From Candidatus Desulfolinea nitratireducens (GTDB taxonomy: Bacteria > Chloroflexota > Anaerolineae > Anaerolineales > Villigracilaceae): a stretch of DNA of 35,550 nucleotides. Shown piece after piece: positions 4,244 to 34,235 of this stretch (positions are counted from its first letter, which is position 1; each line of letters starts with the position of its first letter). A program made the translations under genes and the position numbers. Location: contig JACNJN010000212.1 of NCBI GenBank assembly GCA_014382535.1, positions 1-35,550 on the forward strand. The letters are read 5' to 3'. The notes under the pieces are model-generated. The model saw only the letters and a program-made list of their open reading frames with translations. It was not told where the DNA came from and searched no databases.

Positions 4244-5086
4244 CTACCAGTCTTTTTCTTCGCGGGGGTAGGAACCAAAGACTCGGATAAAGGGTGCGAT
4301 CTCGCGCAAATGGTTCAGCGCAGCATCCGCTGGTTTTCTATCCTGATGCCCGATGAAATCAATATAAAAGAGATACTCCCAGGGTTTCCCTGCCAGGGGG
4401 CGAGATTCGATCTTTGTCAGGTCGATTTCTCTCAGCGCAAAAATGCTCAGGGCCTTGAAAAGGCTTCCAGGTTTATTTTCCAGGCTGAAAACGATCGATG
4501 TTTTATAGCTGAGATCATCAGTATTTTCCTGTCCATATTGCTCGGGGGAAAGCGCCAAAAAACGCGTGTAGTTGGCAGGATCATCTTCCATATTTTCCTG
4601 CAGGATAGTCAATCCATAAACCTTTGCGGCCAGACGGGAAGCGATTGCAGCCGATCTATGATCATTCTCCTCCTTGAGAGCCCTGGCGCTGCCAGCGGTA
4701 TCGCCAGCCACAATTCCCGGCAAATTGAGTTTTCGCAGGCTCTCCTCACATTGCGCCAAAGCTTGCGGATGCGAATACACGCGTTCGATTTCTTCAAGCC
4801 TCACACCGGGCAACGCCATCAGGCAGTGACTGACCCGCAAATGATGCTCGCCAGTAATATGAAGTTGATTGCGGAGTAAAAGGTCATAATTCCGGTGAAT
4901 GCTGCCGGCCAGGGAATTCTCGATCGGCGCTATGCCGCGCATGGCTTTCCCCTCACTGACTGCCTCGAAAAGTTTGTCAAAGCTTTTACAGGGTAGTGTT
5001 TTGATTTCTTTACCAAAATGCTCATAAGCTGCGGCCTCGCTGTACGCGCCTGCCTCACCCTGGAACGCAACGATTTTCTCTCTCAT
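4244..5086 (-). CDS. pheA: Prephenate dehydratase with ACT domain
   Basis: 280 aa; converts prephenate to phenylpyruvate, the committed step to Phe. The periplasmic-binding-like catalytic domain spans about residues 1-185, with AFQGEAGAYSE at the start, PIENSLAGSI and the catalytic NYTRF motif. A C-terminal ACT domain (about 195-275) follows, with the ESRP motif that binds Phe in this family, predicting feedback inhibition. It is monofunctional; chorismate mutase is encoded separately by aroH. Its ATG overlaps the aminotransferase stop by 4 nt (ATGA), and GGAGG lies just upstream. It is the last gene of the aromatic operon. Confidence 0.95.
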   Translation of the reverse strand: MREKIVAFQGEAGAYSEAAAYEHFGKEIKTLPCKSFDKLFEAVSEGKAMRGIAPIENSLAGSIHRNYDLLLRNQLHITGEHHLRVSHCLMALPGVRLEEIERVYSHPQALAQCEESLRKLNLPGIVAGDTAGSARALKEENDHRSAAIASRLAAKVYGLTILQENMEDDPANYTRFLALSPEQYGQENTDDLSYKTSIVFSLENKPGSLFKALSIFALREIDLTKIESRPLAGKPWEYLFYIDFIGHQDRKPADAALNHLREIAPFIRVFGSYPREEKDW

Positions 5087-6234
5087 TTATTTTCCTCCCA
5101 CCAGTCACTTATCCGCCTGATCGCTTCCACGATCTTCTCTTTTGGTTGCGTGATCGAGATCCGGAAAAATCCCTCGCCTTCCGATCCGAAAACGGTCCCT
5201 GGCGCAACGCTGACACCCGCCTCCTTGAGTAAACTCATCGCAAATTGATCGGATTTCCAGCCCTCAGGAATTGGTGTCCAAATATAAAGCGATGCTTGAG
5301 GACTTGCGACGGATATCCCCAACTGACGGAGACCGTTGATAATGAGATCCCGGCGTTGACGGTAAACCCCGTTCCGCTCGTGGACCCAGGCTTGATCCAT
5401 CCCCATTGCGTGTCTGGCCGCCTCAAGGATTGGCCGGAAATGTCCGCTATCGGCATTTGTTTTCAATTTGAGCAGAGTCTCCAAAACGGCAGCATTCCCG
5501 ACCGCCGCACCGACCCGCCATCCAGCCATATTGTGCGACTTGGAAAGTGAGTTGAATTCTATCGCTACATCCTTCGCGCCCTCAACCTGCAGGATGCTCG
5601 GGAGAGGTCCCTCACCATAGTAAACCTGGGTATACGCCGCATCGGCGCAAATAAAAATGTTATTCTTCTTCGCAAACCGGACGAGTTTCTCATAAAACTC
5701 AAGCGGAGCAGTTGCCCCGAGAGGGTTATTTGGGTAATTGATCCAGATCAACTTTGCTTTCTTTGCCACCTCAGCAGGGATCCCCTCCAAATCGGGCAGA
5801 TAATCATTCTCAACACGCAGGGGTAACAAATAGGGCTCTCCGCCTGCAAGTTCGGTCCCGCGGATATAGGTCGGGTAATATGGATTTGGGATCAGCGCAA
5901 TATCGCCCGCTTTGATAAAGGCCTGGCTTAAGTGAAAGATGCCCTCCTTTGTTCCAAGCAGGGGGATGATCTCCTTCTCCGGGTCAAGCCTGACGTTGAA
6001 GACCCGTTCATACATCCCCGCCCAGGCCTCCCGGTAGGAGAGTGGTCCCACATGCATCTGATAGCCATGTGTATTTGGGCGGGATGCTGCCAGGCTGAGC
6101 GCCTCGATCACCTCGGGGTGTGGGGGAAGATCGGGCGAGCCAATATCCAGTCGAATGGTCTCGATACCCCTGGCTTTCAGGATTTCAATTGTTTCGTCAA
6201 GTTGAGCAAAGAAGTGTTTTTTTATTGAGGTCAT
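5083..6234 (-). CDS. Class I/II aminotransferase, probably aromatic
   Basis: 383-aa fold-type I PLP enzyme. Visible are the N-terminal IRLDIGSPDLPPHPEV, the substrate-binding NYPNNPLGA, ADAAY, and the PLP-lysine motif SLSKSHNMAGWR. Overall it resembles LL-diaminopimelate/aspartate-type aminotransferases. The location between aroQ and pheA (4-nt overlap with pheA) suggests it transaminates phenylpyruvate and 4-hydroxyphenylpyruvate as the last step to Phe and Tyr. A DapL role or prephenate transamination are alternatives that sequence alone cannot exclude. A 207-bp gap containing a MITE-like element separates it from aroQ. Confidence 0.88.
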   Translation of the reverse strand: MTSIKKHFFAQLDETIEILKARGIETIRLDIGSPDLPPHPEVIEALSLAASRPNTHGYQMHVGPLSYREAWAGMYERVFNVRLDPEKEIIPLLGTKEGIFHLSQAFIKAGDIALIPNPYYPTYIRGTELAGGEPYLLPLRVENDYLPDLEGIPAEVAKKAKLIWINYPNNPLGATAPLEFYEKLVRFAKKNNIFICADAAYTQVYYGEGPLPSILQVEGAKDVAIEFNSLSKSHNMAGWRVGAAVGNAAVLETLLKLKTNADSGHFRPILEAARHAMGMDQAWVHERNGVYRQRRDLIINGLRQLGISVASPQASLYIWTPIPEGWKSDQFAMSLLKEAGVSVAPGTVFGSEGEGFFRISITQPKEKIVEAIRRISDWWEENK

Positions 6235-6296
6235 TTTATTCTCGAAAATTAGTACGCGAATTTTACGGATCGAGCGGATTTTCAGAGGTCAGATAA

Positions 6297-6408
6297 TAGA
6301 CCTCTTGTATCTGTGCTCCCGGCGGCGTCCCCGCCGCCGCCCTAAAGGATGCTGCGCGAAGGACGGCGGCTAGAGCAGTGTCAAAAAGAGACTTTTGCAT
6401 GAAGTCTA
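6297..6408 (+). repeat. 112-bp MITE-like element, copy B, inside the aro operon
   Basis: Second copy of the element at 2739-2850, same length and orientation. Its ends are imperfect inverted repeats: TAGACCTCTTGTA on the left (6297-6309) and TGCATGAAGTCTA on the right (6396-6408), 10 of 13 matching when one is reverse-complemented. The GC-rich hairpin GGCGGCG/CGCCGCC lies inside. It occupies most of the aroQ-aminotransferase gap and would be transcribed as part of the operon mRNA. Confidence 0.8.
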
Positions 6409-6441
6409 CTAAAAGAATCTGTGAGAATCCCAAAATCATTG

Positions 6442-6873
6442 TTATCCGCGTTCTATTAAAGCCTCTAGTGCCAATCTATACGACATCCATCCAAAGCCAG
6501 TAATTTTTCCCAGGCAAACCGGGGCGATCAATGATTGCTTGCGGAACTCCTCCCGGGCGTAGACATTGGAGAGATGTACCTCAATTACCGGAATGCCAAT
6601 TGCAGCGACCGCATCTCGCAGCGCAACAGATGTGTGCGTATATCCAGCAGGATTGAAGATCACGCCATCCGCTTTTTTTGCAGCCTCCTGCAGGGCATCC
6701 ACCAATGCCCCCTCGCTATTGGATTGGATGCTGTAAATCTCCACATCCTTTGCGGATGCGGCTTCGGCTAATTTCTGATCGATCTCAGCCAGGGTCAAGT
6801 CGCCATAGATCTCAGGTTCGCGGGTACCGAGTAAATTTAAATTGGGTCCGTGTAAAACGAGTAGGGTGGTCAT
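6442..6873 (-). CDS. aroQ: 3-dehydroquinate dehydratase, type II
   Basis: 143 aa; dehydrates 3-dehydroquinate to 3-dehydroshikimate in the shikimate pathway. Type II hallmarks: [18 protein letters not shown] with the active-site Arg and Tyr, the [10 protein letters not shown] motif, [15 protein letters not shown] with Asn and His, and [14 protein letters not shown]. The length matches the dodecameric type II family. AAGGAG precedes the ATG by 5 nt. It sits between aroK-aroB and the aminotransferase in the operon. Confidence 0.97.
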
Positions 6874-6888
6874 TTTTTCTCCTTTATA

Positions 6889-6946
6889 GCCCTCTCCTGC
6901 GAAGCGGGAGAGGAAAGTCCGAGCGCAGCAAGGACAGGTGAGGGCA
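6889..6946. repeat. REP-like palindrome in the aroQ-aroKB gap
   Basis: CCTCTCC (6891-6897) pairs with GGAGAGG (6907-6913) around a short loop, followed by GCGCAGCAAGGACAGGTGAGGGC. It has the look of a generic GC-rich bacterial REP. It fills essentially the whole 76-bp intergenic space and is cotranscribed. Confidence 0.55.
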
Positions 6947-6949
6947 ACG

Positions 6950-8476
6950 CTAAAGCTCCTCTAACAACCTTTCCAAATCCTTAATTTCTACTCCCACGCG
7001 CATCTCACCAATTTTGACTGGCAAGGCAAACTTCACCACCCCTTTTGACTTCTTCTTATCGGTCTGCATTGCCGCGACCAACGCCGAAGGGTGTATCCCA
7101 TTAGGGATGGCAACGGGCAAGCCGAGGGTGACGAGCGTCGCGGCAATTTCATCTGCCAGGCCTGCTTCGGCGATCCCCAATTTCTCCGCCAGACGCGCCT
7201 CAACGACCATCCCGACCCCGACTGCTTCGCCATGGCGCAGGCCATATTGGGTCAGTGATTCGATCCCGTGTCCGATCGTATGTCCAAAATTGAGCGCGGC
7301 GCGGATGCCACCTTCGAATGGATCGGCCTCGATGATCCTGATCTTCACACCCATTGCCCGCGTGATCAATTGATGCCAATTCTCGCTCAACTTCTCAATT
7401 CCCTGTCCACAAAGGGAAAATAGTTCAGGATCGTCGATGACACCATGCTTGACTACCTCGGCCAACCCATTCCGGATCTCAGCTTCGGGCAGCGTGCGCA
7501 ATGTGGCAGGGTCAGCCAGAACGAGTTTGGGCGGGTAAAATGCCCCCACCAGATTTTTGCCTTCAGGGAGATTTGCACCCGTTTTTCCACCCAGGCTGGC
7601 ATCCACCATCGAAAGCAATGAGGTTGGGATGCTGACCCACGCCACCCCGCGCATAATGGTTGCAGCGGCAAAGCCGGCCATATCGTTGACGACCCCACCG
7701 CCAATGGCAAGGATCGTCCCGCCGCGCTCCATGCCAGCGTTGAGCAGATCACGCCAGAGCTGGGTCATCGTATCGATGGTTTTATTTTTTTCGCCGGCTG
7801 GGAAGATCACTGTCGTTGCATCCAATTTTCGGGCAAGTGCTTTAGCATAGAGCGGTGCGGTATTGCTGTCACTGACGATAAAGAAGGGCGGATGGCATCC
7901 ATTTTCAACCAGCAAGGCATCCAGATCATTCAGGCCATTATTTTCAACGCGCGCCGTGTAGCCCTTTCCCATTCCGCGCAGATAAAATCGCCCCAGGCGG
8001 TATTGAATGACCTCCGCGCTTTCTTCAGGGGTTAGATTATCGGTTTCAACCTGGATCGCGAAAGAATGATAATGATCACTGCGTGTATCCAGTAATTCTT
8101 TGAGTGAATTTCCCTGAAGAAGAGGACGTTGATCTTTGCCTCTTTGCAGACGCTCAGCTAAGGTTTTGGATGGGGCCTGCAGGCAGATCACCTCTCCGAT
8201 TTTTTCTGCGTGATTTCGGTTTGCCCGGTCCAAAAGGGCGCCGCCTCCCAAGGCAACAATGGAGGCCTTCCGAGGGCTCTTTAACGCGGTGCTTTCTCTC
8301 TCTCGAAAGCCAGCTTCGCCCTCCTTTTCAAATATATCCGGGATGGAGAGGCCTGCGGACCTTTCAATTGCACCATCCAAATCCACAAAGGGGAGGTTTA
8401 GCTTAGCAGCCAGAAATTTGCCTGTCGTCGATTTGCCCACTCCGGGTGGGCCATAGAGGTAGATGGTTGAGGTCAT
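6950..8476 (-). CDS. aroKB: Shikimate kinase / 3-dehydroquinate synthase fusion
   Basis: 508-aa bifunctional enzyme. The N-terminal shikimate kinase (about residues 1-165) has the P-loop GPPGVGKST at 9-17, the DLD shikimate-binding Asp pair and the GGGALL motif. The C-terminal dehydroquinate synthase (about 175-508) has the NAD-binding [28 protein letters not shown], and zinc ligands in [17 protein letters not shown] and LRHGEAV. It catalyses steps 5 and 2 of the pathway. The start at 8476 is chosen for AAGGAAATC-ATG and because [12 protein letters not shown] begins the kinase; a frame to 8584 would translate a palindromic repeat. aroK-aroB fusions are known in some other bacteria. Confidence 0.95.
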
Positions 8477-8496
8477 GATTTCCTTAATCACTAAAC

Positions 8497-8590
8497 ACGT
8501 CACTGCGAGGAGCAAGTCTTTGCGACGTGGCAGTCTCCAAAAGGTGAAGGAGATTGCCGTGTTGGGCTGACGCCCTCCTCGCAATGACGT
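8497..8590. repeat. 94-bp inverted-repeat element in the aroKB-aroC gap
   Basis: ACGTCACTGCGAGGAG at 8497-8512 is the reverse complement, bar one base, of CTCCTCGCAATGACGT at 8575-8590. The inside holds GGAGATTGCCGTG. It belongs to the widespread GTCATTGCGAGG-type palindromes; related copies are at 28873-28958 and, more diverged, 12926-13006. Confidence 0.8.
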
Positions 8591-8596
8591 AATTAA

Positions 8597-9763
8597 TTAC
8601 CAAAATTTATGCGGCTGGTTATCCAGCTTAATATCGCTCAGTTTTGCCTGTTTTAATGCCGCAAAGCGAGGAAGCATCTCAGCAAGCGAGTCGCCGCCGA
8701 GTTTTTCGAGCAGGGCATCTGCCAGAACAAAGGCAGTCACTGCCTCAATGATCGGTACGGCCCGTGGGACGGGGCAAAAATCGGAACGCTCATATGTCGT
8801 GACAGTTTCTTCTCCGCTGAAGATGTCAACGGTCTCTTGCGGTGTCAGGGTCGAGGCGATCGGTTTCATGGCTGCCCGAATGATTATTGGCTCCCCATTT
8901 GTTATCCCACCCTCGATCCCCCCGGCACGATTTGTTTTGCGAACGAGCTTCTCGCCTTCGCGGAAGATCTGGTCCTGGGCTTCGGTTCCTCGCAAACGGG
9001 CATTCTCAAAAGCGGGGCCAAACTCCACCCCTTTGATCGCCTGGATTCCAAGAATCGCAGCGCCCAATCGGGATTCGAGTTTTCGGTCCCATTGAACGTG
9101 GGAGCCTAATCCCGGCGGTAATCCCATCGCAACAACCTCGATCACACCGCCAAGGGTATTTTTCCCCTTGATTGCGGACTCGATCTCTGCGATCATTTCT
9201 TGAGCAGCACCCTCGTTTGGACAACGAACCTCAGATTCTTCGGCCCGTACGCTGCGGTCAGGGAGATTCATATCGAATAGATCGGCTTTAACCTTGCCAA
9301 TCGAGACCACATAGCCTCCAATTTGTACCCCAAATTCTTCGAGCAGGTGTTTACAAATGGCACCCACCGCAACCCGAGCGGATGTTTCTCTGGCGGAAGC
9401 ACGTTCAAGGGAAGGGCGTAGATCCTCATATCCATATTTGATCGCACCGACCAGGTCGGCATGTCCCGGACGTGGCGCAGTCATTGGCGGGATGTCTTTA
9501 TTTTTCCACTTTTCGTGATCGGCGTTGATGATACTCAGGGAAATCGGCGCGCCGGTCGTTTTCCCTTCGAGAATCCCGCTTTGGATGATGGCTTGATCTT
9601 TTTCGAGCTTCATCCGCGGACCGGCGCCATAGCCGCGTTGACGCCGTTGAAGTTCATGGTCGATCACATTGGGGGTAATTTTCAACCCGGCAGGCATTCC
9701 TTCAAGTATGGCGAGCATGGCGGGGCCATGGGATTCTCCCGCAGTTAGAAAGCGAAGTGGCAT
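8597..9763 (-). CDS. aroC: Chorismate synthase
   Basis: 388 aa; makes chorismate from EPSP using reduced FMN. Motifs: GESHGPAMLAILEGMPAG at the N-terminus, RRQRGYGAGPRM, RPGHADL, ERASARETSARVA, GGIEGGITNG and ERSDFCPVPRA. Length and motif order are those of the bacterial family. AAGGAG lies 7 nt before the ATG; the start is 9 nt after the aroE stop. It is the seventh step of the common pathway within the operon. Confidence 0.97.
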   Translation of the reverse strand: MPLRFLTAGESHGPAMLAILEGMPAGLKITPNVIDHELQRRQRGYGAGPRMKLEKDQAIIQSGILEGKTTGAPISLSIINADHEKWKNKDIPPMTAPRPGHADLVGAIKYGYEDLRPSLERASARETSARVAVGAICKHLLEEFGVQIGGYVVSIGKVKADLFDMNLPDRSVRAEESEVRCPNEGAAQEMIAEIESAIKGKNTLGGVIEVVAMGLPPGLGSHVQWDRKLESRLGAAILGIQAIKGVEFGPAFENARLRGTEAQDQIFREGEKLVRKTNRAGGIEGGITNGEPIIIRAAMKPIASTLTPQETVDIFSGEETVTTYERSDFCPVPRAVPIIEAVTAFVLADALLEKLGGDSLAEMLPRFAALKQAKLSDIKLDNQPHKFW

Positions 9764-9772
9764 AATTTCTCC

Positions 9773-10630
9773 TTACTGCCTTGTATGTTGGATTGCATCC
9801 AGATATGCTTGAAGCATCTTTTGAGTAGATGGTTTTTTTCCTGTCCAGATCCTGAATGAGAGCGCGGCCTGTTCGATCAGCATCCCGATCCCGCCGCGAA
9901 TGGGCAACCCAGCTACTTCTGCGTCTGCCATCAGCTGTGTTTTCGCAGGAGTATAGATCAGGTCGTAAAGGGCTGTGCCACCCGGGAGAGGGAGATCCTC
10001 AGGCCATGGGGAACCTTGCAGATGAGACAACATCCCGACCGGGGTTGTGTTGACGATCAGGGTGGACGATAGATCTGCAAGCCCATGTATATCCAATTTT
10101 AACGCACTTAGCTGCTCGATATTAGATGAGAAATAATTCTTAAGCGCTTGCGCCTGATCGGGACGCCGGGCAGCAATGATCACCTCCCAGCCCTCAGAGA
10201 GGAGCGCATAGGTAACCGCTCGAGCCGATCCGCCTGCGCCAAGGATGAGAGCTTTCCTCACAGAAGATGTCTTTTCTGATAAGTGTACTAAATCATTCAA
10301 AAATCCCTGCGCATCGGTATTATCACCAAATAATTGCCTATTTTTCATTGAAATCGTATTTACCGCGCCGATTGCATTTGCGGTCTCACTCAACTTATCC
10401 AAAAGAGGGATGACTGCCTGCTTATGCGGAATGGTCACATTTAAGCCTCGTAATTCTCTCTTTCGAACGCGGGCGAGCATCTCTGCTAGAGCTTCCGGGT
10501 CATCTGGTGGAATTGGGTAAAGTTGATAATCACCCTGTAGCCCGGAATCATTTAACGCAGCGCGATGGAGTTGAGGCGAGAAACTGGCCTTGATTGGGTA
10601 GCCGAGGAGTCCGAGATTGAATGTTGACAT
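9773..10630 (-). CDS. aroE: Shikimate dehydrogenase (NADP+)
   Basis: 285 aa; reduces 3-dehydroshikimate to shikimate. Shikimate-binding ASFSPQLH with Ser16/Ser18, catalytic Lys70 in NVTIPHK, NTDAQGF with the catalytic Asp, dinucleotide-binding GAGGSARAV, INTTPVGM-like VNTTPVGM, and the C-terminal GGIGMLIEQAA are all present. The segment IIAARRPDQAQ after the glycine loop has the basic residues expected for NADP. No clear Shine-Dalgarno is seen. Tightly followed by aroC. Confidence 0.96.
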   Translation of the reverse strand: MSTFNLGLLGYPIKASFSPQLHRAALNDSGLQGDYQLYPIPPDDPEALAEMLARVRKRELRGLNVTIPHKQAVIPLLDKLSETANAIGAVNTISMKNRQLFGDNTDAQGFLNDLVHLSEKTSSVRKALILGAGGSARAVTYALLSEGWEVIIAARRPDQAQALKNYFSSNIEQLSALKLDIHGLADLSSTLIVNTTPVGMLSHLQGSPWPEDLPLPGGTALYDLIYTPAKTQLMADAEVAGLPIRGGIGMLIEQAALSFRIWTGKKPSTQKMLQAYLDAIQHTRQ

Positions 10631-10649
10631 GTTCTGAAATTTGGTTTAT

Positions 10650-10716
10650 CTAAACACAAAGGTCACGAAGGAACACTAAGAAATACTTTGTGACTCTTAG
10701 TCTTCCTTGTGTTTAG
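10650..10716. repeat. Inverted repeat in the aroE-aroA gap
   Basis: CTAAACACAA (10650-10659) and TTGTGTTTAG (10707-10716) are perfect inverted repeats, with further imperfect pairing inside (GAAGGAACACTAAG against CTTAGTCTTCC). A related fragment with AACACGAAGATTTTTTGTGG occurs, reversed, in the next gap around 12010-12035. It is noncoding and within the operon transcript. Confidence 0.65.
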
Positions 10717-10719
10717 TCC

Positions 10720-11991
10720 TTACATTCTAAGTTCTTCCAATACGTCAAAAAAATTCGGAAATGTCTTTGATACGCAGGCGGGGTTTTCTATCTGCACACC
10801 TTCCACCCGCAGTCCAATCAATGAAAAGGCCATTGCCATCCGATGGTCATTATACGTTCGAATCGTTGCCGGTTGAATATTTTCGCAGGGATATATTTTC
10901 ATTCCATCATCGTATTCTTCAACCGTTATCCCTAAACGGGCCAGCTCTGTGCAAACAGCCGAGACGCGGTCCGTTTCCTTGACGCGTGCCGAGGCGATCC
11001 CACGGATCCGAGTCGGGGAGGAGGCAAAGGGCGCTATTGCCGAGAGGGTTTGGGCTGTATCAGGGATGTCACGCATATCCACATCTATACCGCGGAGATT
11101 GGCGTTTCCAGTAACTTCGATTGCGGTATCAATTTCCTTAATTTCGCAGCCCATTTCCCTGAGGATATCCAGAAAGTTGATATCGCCCTGGACTGAACCG
11201 CGTGAAATATTTTCTACGCGGGCGGTCCCGCCGCAGATGGCGGGTGCTGCGAAGAAATAGGAAGCAGCAGAAGCATCAGATTCTATGGAATAATTTGAAA
11301 CAGGAAGGTAGCGAGCAGGCTGAATCCTGAATCGCTGATACTGGTCCCGTTCCACATCCACGCCAAAATCGCGCATGATCGAGATGGTCATGTCGATATA
11401 GGGTTTTGAGCTGAGGGCTGTGCTGACTTCGATCTCCACGGGTGATTGAGAATAGGGTGCGATCATCAGCAATGCTGAAAGATATTGGGATGAAATATTC
11501 CCTGCGATTTCCGTCTTGCCACCACTCAGTCCGGATGCAGTAATATTTACAGGCGGACAATTATTATTTGCTTCCAACTTTGCGCCCAACTTTCTGAGCG
11601 CTGCCAGCAAATCGCCGATTGGCCTTTCGCGCATCCGTGGCTCACCGTCAATTGAATACTCACCTTTGCCAAGTGTTAAAAAGGCAGTTAGAAAACGGGC
11701 TGTTGTGCCTGAATTGCCAATAAAAAGCTCTGCGCTGGTAGCGGGGATATTCCCACCCAGGCCCCGAACACCGATCTCTTTGCGCTCAGGGTTAAGTTCA
11801 ACTTCAAAGCCTAAATTTTGAAGGGCCTTCGCAAAGTAATCAGAATCGTCTGAAAAAAGGGCGTTTCGAAGCGTGGTTTTCCCCTCGGCCAGGGCAGCCA
11901 TCAGCAAAGCGCGGTTGGTCAGGGATTTTGAGCCCGGCACGCGTACGCTGGCATTCAGGGGATGGGTGATGGGGTGAATGGTTTTTGTCAT
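10720..11991 (-). CDS. aroA: 3-phosphoshikimate 1-carboxyvinyltransferase (EPSP synthase)
   Basis: 423 aa; joins PEP to shikimate-3-phosphate. Visible motifs: VPGSKSLTNRALL, NSGTTARFL in the PEP-binding loop, GEPRMRERPIGDLL, SSQYLSALL, SDASAASYFF, and the C-terminal RVKETDRVSAV and YNDHRMAMAFSL. The loop sequence NSGTT rather than NAGTA departs from the classic enteric form, so inhibitor sensitivity should not be assumed. The ribosome binding site is weak (GAGC). The gap to tyrA is short and carries a fragment of the inverted repeat seen on its other side. Confidence 0.96.
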   Translation of the reverse strand: MTKTIHPITHPLNASVRVPGSKSLTNRALLMAALAEGKTTLRNALFSDDSDYFAKALQNLGFEVELNPERKEIGVRGLGGNIPATSAELFIGNSGTTARFLTAFLTLGKGEYSIDGEPRMRERPIGDLLAALRKLGAKLEANNNCPPVNITASGLSGGKTEIAGNISSQYLSALLMIAPYSQSPVEIEVSTALSSKPYIDMTISIMRDFGVDVERDQYQRFRIQPARYLPVSNYSIESDASAASYFFAAPAICGGTARVENISRGSVQGDINFLDILREMGCEIKEIDTAIEVTGNANLRGIDVDMRDIPDTAQTLSAIAPFASSPTRIRGIASARVKETDRVSAVCTELARLGITVEEYDDGMKIYPCENIQPATIRTYNDHRMAMAFSLIGLRVEGVQIENPACVSKTFPNFFDVLEELRM

Positions 11992-12049
11992 TTTTTGCTC
12001 TTTGTGACCACAAAAAATCTTCGTGTTCTTTGTGACTCTGTGATGATTT

Positions 12050-12910
12050 TTATGCTTTGCGCATCATCTCTTCACGTTTATTTTTACTCGCATCCAGCAA
12101 AATCTCCAGATTTACCTCGTCTCCAGCTTTCATGAGCGCCAGGATCTTATCAATCTCGGTTTTGACTTTTTCCAGCGCCTCGATCGTGTTATCAGCATTT
12201 GTCATCACCATCGAGAGCATCATGCTCGTGGGGGTTGAGGCCAGCCGGGTTGCACTGGAAAAACCTCCTCCGCTGAGACGGGCATATTTTTTCTCTGTTG
12301 CATGCGTGAGAGCCACCGAAAGAAGATGAGGAGCGTGACTCGTTGCCGCGAGAGTGCGATCGTGTTCTTTGGCATCAATCCAGAGCGGGGTGGCGCCAAT
12401 CGCATCCACAAGTTGAGCAGCGAGAGTTTTTGTCCGCTCCGATGTCCGCCCGGAGGGCGTCAGCGTATAGATGCAGCCTTCGAGCATTTCTTTTTCGGCA
12501 TTGGAAATTCCAAGTGTTTCCTTGCCACAAATGGGATGCCCTCCAATAATATCGAAATTGGACGGGAGGGATTCAAGCGCGCACATGATCTCGATTTTTG
12601 TGGACGTAAGGTCCGTGACGATCAGCTTGCCTCCGTTATGGATGCGAGGTAACTCGGCGATGATCTCGAGGGCTGCTGCCACCGGTGTGGCTATGATCAG
12701 TATATCCGCTTCCGGCAGGACTTGGCGAAGATCTGTCGAAGCTGAATCCACCACTCCTTTAGCGAGGGCAATCTGACAGGTCTCCGGATCGCTGTCTGCG
12801 CCAAGTAGGCTATTGCAATGACCGCGCAGTCCCATCGCCAGGGAGGCACCCATCAATCCCAATCCGAGAATGGCAATATTTTGATCGTGTAAGAAGTTAC
12901 TTTCTTCCAT
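12050..12910 (-). CDS. tyrA: Prephenate dehydrogenase
   Basis: 286 aa; oxidatively decarboxylates prephenate (or arogenate) toward tyrosine. NAD-binding GLGLMGASLA at the N-terminus, IIATPVAAALE, the active-site motif GGHPICGKE, and SHAPHLLSVAL in the helical domain identify the TyrA family. There is no ACT or chorismate-mutase domain, so feedback control may rest on other enzymes or on the operon attenuator. Prephenate is favoured over arogenate because pheA and a late aminotransferase are in the same operon, but specificity is an inference. Confidence 0.94.
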   Translation of the reverse strand: MEESNFLHDQNIAILGLGLMGASLAMGLRGHCNSLLGADSDPETCQIALAKGVVDSASTDLRQVLPEADILIIATPVAAALEIIAELPRIHNGGKLIVTDLTSTKIEIMCALESLPSNFDIIGGHPICGKETLGISNAEKEMLEGCIYTLTPSGRTSERTKTLAAQLVDAIGATPLWIDAKEHDRTLAATSHAPHLLSVALTHATEKKYARLSGGGFSSATRLASTPTSMMLSMVMTNADNTIEALEKVKTEIDKILALMKAGDEVNLEILLDASKNKREEMMRKA

Positions 12911-12925
12911 TTTTTATTGAGTGAT

Positions 12926-13006
12926 GATGAATTTGCGAGCGGAGCGACACGTGCGCCGCTCTGAGTTTGTTGCAGTGCAGGCGAGCAATCTCCTCGCAAA
13001 ATCATC
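12926..13006. repeat. Diverged palindromic element in the tyrA-aroF gap
   Basis: GATGAATTTGCGAG (12926-12939) matches CTCGCAAAATCATC (12993-13006) as an inverted repeat, 13 of 14 positions. The inside holds GCAATCTCC, shared with the element at 8497-8590. It occupies most of the 103-bp gap. Confidence 0.65.
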
Positions 13007-13013
13007 TTCTAAG

Positions 13014-14048
13014 TTATTGAAGGGGATTGGTGGAGATTTCTGCCATTTTTAGCGCGTCTGCGATGGCGTTGACCTGTTTGACAAGGGTTGTGAAGCGTTT
13101 TGGCTTGAGCGATTGTTCGCCATCTGACAAAGCATTGGCAGGGTCAGGATGGACCTCGACAATAATCCCATCAGCGCCCGCGGCAATACCCGAGCGGGCG
13201 AGGGCGGAGACGTATTCCCAGTGCCCCGTGCTGTGGCTGGGATCAAGGATAACGGGGAGGTGGGTTAGGGCCTGCAGGACGGGGATCGCATTGATATCGG
13301 TTGTATTGCGGGTAGCGGTTTCAAAGGTACGGATGCCTCGCTCGCAGAGAATCACATTTTGGTTGCCTTTTGAAAGGATATATTCAGCAGCCATTAGTAA
13401 ATCGTTAATGGTAGCGCTCATCCCGCGCTTGAGTAAAACAGTGCGATTGCTGATACCAGCAGCTTTGAGCAGGGCATAATTCTGCATATTTCTTGCGCCG
13501 ATCTGGAGAACCTCGGCATAATCGGCGACCAGGGGAACCAATTCGGGAGAGGTAACCTCGGTGACAATGGGCAGGCCTGTTAGATCACGCGCTTCAGCGA
13601 GAAGTTTTAATCCTTCTTCGCCCATCCCCTGAAACGAGTAAGGAGATGTGCGCGGTTTGAAGGCACCGCCTCGTAAGGCGTGCGCGCCTGCAGCTTTGAT
13701 GCTTTGCGCCACTTCAAGAATTTGCTCGCGACTCTCTACTGCGCAGGGACCGCCAATGATAATGGGTGTCCCGTTTCCGACGACGTGCTCTCCGATGGGG
13801 ATGAGCGTGTTTTCGGGGTAAAACTCACGTGATGCCAATTTGTAGGGCTTTGAGATGGGGATCACACTGGCAACCCCCGGCAGCCGGATAAAGGCGGTCG
13901 GTTCGACCGGACGACCATCTCCTACGACGCCGATCACATTGCGTTCTGATCCGGCAATTCTGTGAGGATGGAGGTTGAGGTCTTTGACCCGCTGAAGAAC
14001 ATGGCGTACCTCAGCTTTTGTTGCGGTAGTTTTCATTATGATCATCAT
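13014..14048 (-). CDS. aroF: DAHP synthase, second tandem copy
   Basis: 344-aa type I-beta 3-deoxy-D-arabino-heptulosonate-7-phosphate synthase, the entry step of the pathway. An N-terminal ferredoxin-like regulatory domain (about 1-70) precedes a TIM barrel. Barrel motifs: GGPCAVE with metal-ligand Cys102, [34 protein letters not shown] and EVHPDP. In Thermotoga-type enzymes the N-terminal domain mediates Tyr/Phe inhibition. AGGAG precedes the ATG. It is exactly as long as its neighbour at 14099-15133, with a near-identical barrel but a diverged N-terminus. Confidence 0.95.
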
Positions 14049-14098
14049 GGTAAAGCTCCTTTTGAATTACGAATAAATGCGAAGATAACTATTTTCTT

Positions 14099-15133
14099 TT
14101 ATTGCCGGGGCGTCGTTGGAATGTTTGCCGACTTGAGCACATCTGCAATGGCGTTGGCCTCTTTGACAAGCTCGGTAAACCGTTTTGGTTTTAGTGATTG
14201 GGCACCATCCGAAAGAGCATTGACGGGGTCCGGGTGTACTTCAACGATCAGCCCATCGGCTCCGGCGGCTATACCGGCACGGGCAAGGGCAGAGACCAAA
14301 CGCCAATCACCTGTGCTATGACTTGGGTCGAGAATGACGGGAAGGTGAGTAAGAATTTTTAAAACAGGAATTGCGTTGATATCCGTGGTATTCCTTGTGG
14401 CGGTCTCAAAGGTGCGGATGCCTCGCTCACAAAGAATTATATTTTTATTGCCCTTGGAGAGAATATATTCAGCAGCCATAAGGAAATCGTTGATGGTGGC
14501 ACTCATACCGCGCTTGAGCAAAACTGTACGCTTGCTGAGTCCAACAGCTTTTAGCAGGGCGTAGTTTTGCATATTACGGGCACCGATCTGGAGAACATCT
14601 GCATAATCAGCAACAAGGCCCACCAGTTCCGGAGATGTCACTTCAGTAACGATCGGCAGACCGGTTAGGTCGCGCGCTTCCGCAAGGAGCTTCAATCCCT
14701 CCTCTCCCATTCCCTGGAAAGAGTAGGGAGAGGTGCGGGGCTTGAAGGCGCCTCCGCGCAAAGCCTGGGCTCCGGCATCTTTTACAGCTAGAGCGGATTC
14801 GAGAATCTGCTCCCGGTTCTCGACGGCGCAAGGTCCACCAATGATGACGCGACTGCCATTCCCAACAAGATGCTCACCAATCGGGACTAGAGAGTTTTCA
14901 GGATAAAATTCCCTGGATGCCAGTTTATAGGGCTTGGAGATGGGGACAACGCTATCCACACCGGGAAGGCGGACGAAATGGGACACTTCCACCGGGCGGC
15001 CATCACCAACCACGCCGATCACGGTTCTCTCAGCCCCGTCAGAGAGATGGGCATCCAGCTCGAGAGATTTTATCCTGGAAATGACATTTTCAACTTCTTC
15101 CCTGCTTGCGCTCGCGCGCATGATGATCATCAT
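14099..15133 (-). CDS. aroF: DAHP synthase, first tandem copy
   Basis: Type I-beta DAHP synthase of 344 aa. The start is taken at 15133 ([10 protein letters not shown]), with GAGG 8 nt upstream; this equals the length and start of the paralogue. A longer frame to 15160 would overlap aroH. It has the same Cys102, [16 protein letters not shown] and EVHPDP metal and substrate motifs as the paralogue. Residues 6-37 share only about 12 of 32 positions with it, while long stretches of the barrel are identical, suggesting two isozymes with different allosteric behaviour. It starts 10 nt after the aroH stop. Confidence 0.95.
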
Positions 15134-15143
15134 TTGATATACC

Positions 15144-15518
15144 TCATGTCTGGCTTTCAATTAAGTCAGGTCGCAGGTTTCTTGCTCCTTTGATGTAAAT
15201 ATGCCTGATTTCATCCTGCCTGAGATCAGTATTCCAGAGAAGCAAAACCCGAATGCAATACGGAGTACTTCCTTCAACCGGGATTTCCTGGGCGCATATT
15301 CTGGGGACATTACGCCACCCATTTTTCTCTGCAGCGCGGGCCGGAAACGCGGAGCGGATGTCGGAGGTAACGGTAAAGAACGCGCTGGCGATGTCCTCAG
15401 GCTGGAGGCTTGGATTTGCAACCCGGATCTCTTCCAATATCTCCACGGTGGCCTCGAGAACCTCGGTCTCAGTATCCTGGCTGATGGTAGTTGCACCTCG
15501 TATTCCTCGAACTGGCAT
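15144..15518 (-). CDS. aroH: Chorismate mutase, AroH type
   Basis: 124 aa; rearranges chorismate to prephenate. It matches the trimeric Bacillus-type AroH fold: N-terminal [10 protein letters not shown] with the active-site Arg, [15 protein letters not shown] (the equivalent of the TxDLxxAFPA motif), an EIPVEGS strand, [10 protein letters not shown], and a C-terminal [12 protein letters not shown]. The start is ATG 15518, 7 nt after AGGAG; a TTG at 15545 in the same frame lies in the terminator tail and is rejected. It is the first gene of the operon, 81 nt after the leader-peptide stop. Confidence 0.95.
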
Positions 15519-15543
15519 CTTTTGCTCCTTTTGGGTTTTAAGC

Positions 15544-15576
15544 AAAAAAGCGTGAGACCAATTGGTCTCACGCTTT
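15544..15576 (-). terminator. Intrinsic terminator of the Phe/Tyr attenuator
   Basis: On the minus strand AAAGCGTGAGACCAA is followed immediately by its perfect complement TTGGTCTCACGCTTT. The stem is self-complementary over 15 bases per arm, in practice about 13 bp with a 4-nt loop, and is followed by a run of T (six in all, overlapping the stem base). It lies between the leader peptide and the aroH ribosome binding site. It would stop transcription before aroH when aromatic amino acids are plentiful. Confidence 0.93.
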
Positions 15577-33482: not shown

Positions 33483-33609
33483 AAAAATCTCCTGATTAAT
33501 TAATCTTTCTGTAATAATTATCTAGTATAGTATTCTGGACTGATGTTATCATATTTAGGCGATAATATCCCACGACTGATATAAGAAGTGTCTTAGAAAT
33601 GGAGATAAT

Positions 33610-34176
33610 TTGAATCGAAAAATTCCCTTGACCCTGGGCTTGCTGGCCGTCTTTTTTCTATCGGCTTGCACCCCAAGCGCATCCGCACCCCCACCGACGC
33701 TTGTACCAGAGCCTGCTCCACCAGTGATTACTCCCACCGCGTTTGTTCCGGCCCCGACTGTAGAAGATGTTGGAGCTCCTGCTCCGACGGAAATTCCACC
33801 AACCGATATTCCGCCAACCGAAACTCCGGTTATTGTGCCTACCTCACGAGGAAATCAATTGGTAGCGACTGATCCTGTAACTGTTAACATCGCCTCAGGG
33901 CAGCCGCAATTAATCGAATTCTTTGCTTTTTGGTGAAGCACCTGCCGAACTATGGCGCCCGTCGTGCACGGGCTTGAATCAAAATATTTTGGAAAAGTTG
34001 ATTTTACATACCTTGATATTGATGATGCTGCAAATGCTGAATATAAAAGGCAATTCAATTTTCGGTACCAGCCGCAGTTCTTCCTGGTTGATGGAAGTGG
34101 TGTCATTCATAAAGAATGGATCGGTTATGTTCCAGACTTTGAGCTTGAAGCCGAATTTGCAAAATTGATTAACTAG
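33610..34176 (+). CDS. Lipoprotein thioredoxin with in-frame TGA (putative selenocysteine, UxxC)
   Basis: 188 codons from TTG 33610 (GGAG five nt upstream), read through an in-frame TGA at 33934-33936. Residues 1-20 are a lipoprotein signal (lipobox LSAC, Cys20). A Pro/Thr-rich linker follows (about 24-80), then a thioredoxin-like domain: IEFFAFW-U-STC-RTMAPVV, with the TGA at residue 109 exactly where the first Cys of the CxxC motif belongs and Cys112 intact. The fold continues through FTYLDIDDAANAEYKRQF and the cis-Pro region YQPQFFLVDGSG (Pro155) to a normal stop. Conservation of frame and domain on both sides, and a hairpin just downstream, favour selenocysteine insertion over decay. It is probably membrane-anchored outside the cytoplasm. 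A nonsense mutation is the alternative. Confidence 0.8.
33957..33973 (+). promoter_or_regulatory. Candidate bacterial SECIS hairpin
   Basis: GCCCGT-CGTGC-ACGGGC: a 6-bp stem with a 5-nt loop beginning 20 nt after the TGA. The apical loop starts about 26 nt from the TGA, within the known bacterial range of roughly 16-37 nt, and has G as its second base, as the bacterial SECIS consensus requires. It lies inside the reading frame, as bacterial SECIS elements must. Base pairing was assessed by eye only. Confidence 0.6.
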
Positions 34177-34199: not shown

Positions 34200-34235
34200 A
34201 ATAGAGCCGCCAAACAATTATATAGCGGCTCTATT
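34200..34235. terminator. Bidirectional terminator between thioredoxin and DAO genes
   Basis: AATAGAGCCGC and GCGGCTCTATT form a perfect 11-bp stem around 14 nt. In the plus direction it is followed by TATGTTTG and in the minus direction by ATTTTTGGG. It separates two convergent genes. Confidence 0.85.

Follow-up and report, generated by a model that had tools for sequence, protein, structure and literature searches.

A TGA codon at 33934–33936 splits a frame that is otherwise open, which raises the question of whether the locus is a damaged gene or one in which UGA is decoded as selenocysteine (Sec). The codon lies in a stretch of 35,550 nucleotides from Candidatus Desulfolinea nitratireducens, referred to here in its entirety as the window. 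The frame (33610–34176, forward strand) comprises 188 codons from a TTG start to a TAG stop. Both halves are in the same frame and the TGA, within FAFW-[TGA]-STC, is the sole interruption, in agreement with a preliminary description of this DNA, which had taken the two halves as one lipoprotein-linker-thioredoxin protein. TTG is a fitting start codon, because a relative from the same genus (L025) has ATG at that place, and a Shine-Dalgarno-like GGAG (33601–33604, forward strand; read directly from the sequence) lies 5 nt upstream. From the sequence and its relatives, we put the probability that this gene encodes a Sec-decoded thioredoxin lipoprotein, its exact role aside, at roughly 0.9.

The predicted protein has three parts. 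The N-terminal segment (33610–33669) reads as a lipoprotein signal peptide with the lipobox LSAC, assigned by pattern only, in which Cys20 would be the lipid-bearing residue; the lipobox pattern recurs in 33 of 36 homologues, and the remaining three are truncated by contig ends. The protein is thus very probably a surface lipoprotein. A linker of 66 residues follows (33670–33867), rich in Pro, Ala, Thr and Glu (79% P/A/T/S/E/V, 29% Pro); its length across 33 homologues has a median of 59 residues (24–139), and the thioredoxin domain as aligned (33853–34173) begins before the linker ends. This domain contains the UxxC and a motif YQP with a probable cis-Pro. Downstream of the stop codon, RNA folding gave an 11-bp hairpin (34200–34235, forward strand), a possible terminator. 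The promoter and terminator scan reported no terminator, and the loop of this hairpin exceeds what the scan permits.

The domain assignment is clear. The whole protein matched PF00085 (Thioredoxin) with an E-value of 4.3e-12 and 46.4 bits, against a gathering score of 23.5, and the AlphaFold2 model of the domain, built from 33 aligned sequences, adopts the thioredoxin fold with a mean pLDDT of 96. The closest solved structures by fold are classical thioredoxins (Foldseek 1.6e-9 to the S. aureus thioredoxin). By sequence profile, the PDI-type Thioredoxin domain-containing protein 5 ranks first among solved structures (3.2e-16), ahead of bacterial thioredoxins and reconstructed ancestral ones, and classical thioredoxins make up most of the best 60 profile matches. 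The protein alignment of the family holds the TGA-form rows of 33 genomes less three (L024, L038 and L052). The TGA corresponds to the first catalytic position of U-S-T-C, that is, the codon of the nucleophilic Cys, as had been proposed.

We then asked what relatives carry at this codon. A strong match (E below 1e-20) whose TGA falls on this codon was present in 33 of the 60 genomes searched (the source genome and 59 relatives), and two others (G043 and G056) have an uninterrupted Cys form. The homologues therefore show TGA or Cys here, rather than neither, the outcome that the preliminary description had held to speak against a selenoprotein. No match at E below 1e-20 was found in 24 of the 60 genomes. 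The gene is dispensable, because 18 of these 24 possess SelB. G049 was rejected as a Cys form and excluded from both the TGA-form and the Cys-form counts: its DNA (L055) has the UGA in a neighboring frame, together with the hairpin described below and apparent frame shifts on either side, which may reflect an assembly error or decay. Another genome, G040 (L051), encodes the Sec thioredoxin lipoprotein twice in tandem, with UxxC in both copies.

The search of 396 genomes from the class gave 54 matches at E ≤ 1.3e-30, and 53 of them have an in-frame TGA; codon-by-codon reading covers 32 of these 53. The sole exception, G339, is a Cys form. A thioredoxin-domain scan of genome contigs returned one relative, which belongs to 'Chloroflexi bacterium isolate TC_195' and is likewise a Cys form; its protein is identical to G339:C181, and the two were counted as one genome. 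Outside the class, 15 matching genomes were found among 400 drawn from the phylum. All were weak (at most 67.5 bits), TGA was present in only 2 of the 15, and they were excluded as family members.

The source genome (3.65 Mb in 223 contigs, completeness 97.9%) possesses the machinery for Sec insertion. The tRNA-Sec scored 65.2 bits against a cut-off of 47, with ARAGORN in agreement, SelA (540.8 bits) is encoded on the same contig as the tRNA-Sec, SelB scored 325.6 bits, and SelD scored 245 bits in a match spanning positions 1–214 of 311. All four of selA, selB, selC and selD are accordingly present, among them selB and selC, whose absence was to have been decisive against the proposal. The SelD gene also contains an in-frame UGA, within U-A-S-K; UxxK is the motif that the inventory PMC13188914 lists for SelD. 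Among 14 control genomes, the cut-offs were passed by 5 for the tRNA-Sec model, 2 for SelB, 1 for SelA and 2 for SelD, so that the tRNA-Sec model is less specific than any of the other three.

The presence of SelB follows the form of the gene. SelB exceeded the cut-off in 31 of the 33 TGA-form genomes and in 21 of 25 further TGA-form genomes hand-picked from the class search, giving 52 of 58, compared with none of seven Cys-form genomes (G043, G056, G339, G321, G211, G062 and G343; Fisher p = 2.5e-6, kinship ignored). These seven were chosen by us from a larger number, and the last four match less well and are possibly not orthologues. Six Sec-form genomes were under the SelB cut-off (G008, G053, G166, G253, G365 and G259). 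G053 has a piece of SelB at a contig edge, and G166, G253 and G365 are less than 90% complete; incomplete assemblies may account for the missing SelB in the six.

A SECIS-like hairpin lies within the coding sequence at 33957–33973 (forward strand), starting 20 nt past the UGA and overlying the codons for A-P-V-V-H-G-L. The Fig. 2 legend of PMC13188914 gives, for bacterial SECIS elements, a loop of 3–9 nt with G in positions 1–2, a stem of 4–16 bp, a distance of 16–37 nt from UGA to loop, and a minimum free energy of at most −7.5. The hairpin falls inside these limits, with the loop CGUGC (G second), 6 bp, 26 nt from UGA to loop and −14.1 kcal/mol for the UGA plus 54 nt. The latter segment folded alone was of ordinary stability (z = −0.70; 44 of 200 shuffles as stable). 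Rfam gave no match at gathering thresholds over the whole window, and a permissive Rfam search around the UGA gave no SECIS match and three weak unrelated ones. The earlier claim of a SECIS-compatible hairpin at the right distance stands, although the single-sequence fold lends it no support; we accept the hairpin because of its covariation in relatives, not because of single-sequence folding.

Covariation was evaluated in two sets of Sec-form rows. In the first, one row from each of the 33 TGA-form genomes (without the second G040 copy and the Cys forms), all 198 of 198 stem cells were paired, and three pairs had changes on both sides. The second set added 27 class rows and L106, L131, L132, L134 and L136, drawn from 40 regions fetched; it excludes L133 and L135, which are weaker Sec forms, and all Cys forms. 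In these 65 rows, 382 of 390 cells were paired, with one unpaired stem position in each of eight rows, and five of the six pairs had changes on both sides; the loop dinucleotide GU (columns 31–32) was invariant in 65 of 65. The paired fraction (97.9% vs 89.6% in shuffles), the number of doubly changed cells (44 vs 12.3) and the covariation score (0.352 vs 0.181) were each as high in 0 of 500 shuffles, and the number of doubly changed pairs was attained by 1 of 500. The remaining one of the five measures, further pair types, did not stand out: 8 vs 7.7 in shuffles, with 336 of 500 as high in the 65-row set and 137 of 500 in the 33-row set. Sliding the 3′ partners by 1–3 columns left at most 48.7% paired. 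In seven Cys-form rows from six genomes (L053, L054, L121–L123, L125 and L126), 2 to 5 of the 6 pairs were kept (a visual count); L121 and L126 did best, with five of six, which puts them level with the eight imperfect Sec-form rows.

Shared ancestry was taken into account with a poorly resolved tree built without the stem residues, from few columns and with 20 of 62 inner branches well supported. On this tree, pair 28–36 underwent at least 12 changes on one side and at least 14 on the other, and among six supported independent pairs the two sides changed in the same direction in 5.7 on average and in opposite directions in none (sign test, median p = 0.031, range 0.031–0.125). Pairs 27–37, 24–40, 25–39 and 29–35 never changed in opposite directions on the same tree, yet did not reach 0.05, and on an earlier tree no more than four independent pairs had support (p = 0.125). 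Some of the stem changes are synonymous: His CAC/CAT tracks Val versus Met/Ile, and Leu TTA/CTN tracks the codon preceding the stem. Selection on a SECIS hairpin in this lineage is supported by these comparisons. In L050 and L052, Gly is replaced by Arg while the hairpin pair stays intact, which suggests that the P-x-V-H-G-L-E motif may reflect an RNA signal shaping the protein sequence.

These results bear on two other explanations of the TGA. One is that the locus is a pseudogene or an error, in which a nonsense change or a miscalled TGC or TGT hit an ordinary Cys thioredoxin lipoprotein; the division of the source assembly into 223 contigs would leave room for such an error. However, a read error is untenable because the same TGA is found in 33 genomes; in addition, an in-frame TGA occurs in 53 of the 54 matches from the class, the hairpin covaries and the frame downstream of the TGA shows no decay. 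We regard this explanation as scarcely credible, and the chance nonsense mutation that had been dismissed as a coincidence is indeed implausible. The other is that UGA is recoded as a different amino acid, such as Trp, by read-through or a changed code. Read-through of UGA is possible in principle, but TGA terminates 9 of 31 window genes (listed by eye), so the code is not changed genome-wide. In addition, the codon occupies the nucleophilic Cys position of thioredoxins, the Cys-form genomes tested were without SelB, and the genome's own SelD has UGA in its UxxK motif, all of which make such recoding highly improbable. Taken together, the comparison of homologues indicates that UGA 33934–33936 is almost certainly decoded as Sec.

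How new is this protein? The preliminary description had called it a probable new selenoprotein, which is tenable at the level of the family but not of the kind, since Sec thioredoxins with UxxC are already listed: PMC13188914, an inventory of 2026, includes Sec thioredoxin (PF00085, UxxC) as experimentally verified, and similar kinds of selenoprotein are listed in PMC9312934. The window protein resembles Sec thioredoxin in having Sec at the first catalytic position of a thioredoxin domain, and differs in its lipobox and long linker tether and in falling short of the thioredoxin equivalog TIGR01068 (45.6 vs 96.8 bits). Nor is a location outside the membrane, which had been called unusual, new for a bacterial selenoprotein, because NCBIfam has a family of the '(seleno)lipoprotein' type, NF041057 (the Rcas_1661 family), which by its name is a thioredoxin-like lipoprotein with Sec and for which UxxC is listed. 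The name Rcas_1661 presumably points to Roseiflexus castenholzii, a Chloroflexi. NF041057 appears as 'DsbG-like' in a table of PMC13188914, the main text of which contains no word starting with 'chloroflex' or 'lipoprotein'. The window protein, with its PF00085 domain of about 105 residues, scored 22.8 against the NF041057 cut-off of 190 bits, and NF041057-like proteins occur separately in the same genome, one of them with U-P-F-C and 140.8 bits, also under the cut-off. Because this cut-off is missed, we call the window protein a new family among the already known Sec thioredoxins and (seleno)lipoproteins. TlpA, ResA and DsbE likewise have a thioredoxin fold outside the cytoplasm, whereas the window protein is under the dsbE (28.6 vs 123.15 bits) and ResA (14.4 vs 170) cut-offs; these families are often CcdA-linked and, to our knowledge, consist of Cys proteins. 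We did not find the family described in the open-access literature, subscription papers and preprints being outside the scope of the search, and three selenoproteins had been counted in Chloroflexi as of 2006 (PMC1794560). Gene callers that stop at UGA would report a short 'lipoprotein' and a separate orphan piece in place of this protein, and a family of many genomes in one class can go unseen for this reason.

The combination of Sec at the nucleophile, a lipobox and a tether points to a thioredoxin that works at the membrane's outer face; its role is probably that of an extracytoplasmic disulfide reductase. SelB with Sec-tRNA-Sec would bind the hairpin loop through its invariant GU, and Sec would be inserted; the pre-protein would then be exported and lipidated at Cys20, and the Pro/Ala/Thr/Glu-rich linker would tether the domain on the outside of the membrane. 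There the selenolate may attack exported proteins at their disulfides (or at sulfenic or peroxide groups), and Cys112 would resolve the intermediate. The resulting selenenylsulfide might be re-reduced by electrons crossing the membrane via the genome's own CcdA/DsbD-type protein, although this recharging by CcdA is a tentative proposal. The genome encodes both a DsbD_TM/CcdA protein (73.9 bits) and a VKOR (103.4 bits), so that reducing and oxidizing partners both exist.

No constant partner gene was found across 20 neighborhoods compared, including the window, and the function consequently rests on fold and location. Since the domain is a plain thioredoxin, we lean, by a modest margin over even odds, towards a disulfide reductase rather than an oxidase or isomerase. 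The alternative that the protein oxidizes thiols or isomerizes disulfides of exported proteins, with VKOR recharging it, would draw on the presence of VKOR, on a DsbA-like U-P-F-C protein encoded on the VKOR contig and on the PDI-type protein that tops the profile matches to solved structures; we judge it unlikely, as the nearest folds and most of the best 60 profile matches are classical thioredoxins and the domain is itself a plain one. Sec also favors nucleophilic reduction, a point of general chemistry that runs against oxidation. Less likely still is a dedicated role in copper or cytochrome maturation outside the membrane, of the TlpA or Sco type, instead of general reduction. In the order-level relatives L089 and L092, the gene is flanked by an LGT-like/TlpA-like pair on one side and CsoR-like/CopA-like genes on the other (Pfam identified LGT in L092; the other neighbors were named by eye), but this context was seen in just 2 of the 20 neighborhoods, and the neighbor in the window, as in several relatives, is instead a divergently oriented cluster of aldehyde dehydrogenase and CoA-transferase genes. 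Elsewhere in the window, two similar adjacent frames (13014–15160), which by eye we take to resemble tandem DAHP synthases, lie within a run at about 4244–15545 of what are presumably aromatic amino acid genes.

The searches returned further Sec candidates with thioredoxin-like motifs. Eight relatives (L056, L117, L134 and L139–L143), seven among the class-search matches listed and one from the 60-genome set, have two in-frame TGAs; all eight read UxxU, and a lipobox was recognized by eye in seven. Each has one SECIS-like stretch, 20 nt past the first UGA and 11 nt past the second, and a diselenide thioredoxin is possible. A diselenide family with UxxU, SelL, was reportedly described by Shchedrina in 2007. 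UxxU is shared between relatives of the window family and known UxxU selenoproteins, which are mostly Prx-like (a Prx-like family with UxxU is reported in PMC2398784), while the window protein itself has UxxC in a thioredoxin domain. Eleven other thioredoxin loci (L057–L063 and L065–L068) combine hydrophobic N-terminal segments with (F/L)QSP(Y/F)UxxC, in the forms FQSP(Y/F)U or LQSPYU. The motif P-(V/I)-V-x-(G/R)-(L/I/V) comes next, and its codons make up a hairpin like that of the window gene. One member searched against NCBIfam passed no cut-off. We treat these loci, a candidate second Sec family, and the UxxU relatives as leads that stand apart from our conclusion on the window gene.

These candidates may together belong to an overlooked, class-wide extracytoplasmic network of selenium-based disulfide chemistry in Chloroflexota, comprising UxxC and UxxU lipoproteins (the latter possibly diselenides, with one hairpin for two UGAs), membrane-anchored (F/L)QSP(Y/F)UxxC proteins and a DsbA-like U-P-F-C protein, an idea to which we give a little less than even odds. 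Sec formate dehydrogenases occur in Chloroflexi (PMC5736913, PMC4959059), and Anaerolinea thermophila is reported to encode the Sec elongation factor with no dehydrogenase annotated as containing Sec (PMC4959059). If the network is real, it could explain SelB where a Sec formate dehydrogenase is missing, and Sec thioredoxins of the window kind are a candidate answer to the A. thermophila puzzle. The window family itself ties selenium to extramembrane disulfide chemistry in a large bacterial group. The DsbA-like candidate (L096), related to NF041057 but under its cut-off, lies on contig 42 of the source genome, together with VKOR, and has a foldable stretch past its UGA. L064, a lipoprotein-like frame with DASWUPSC, is another thioredoxin-like Sec candidate.
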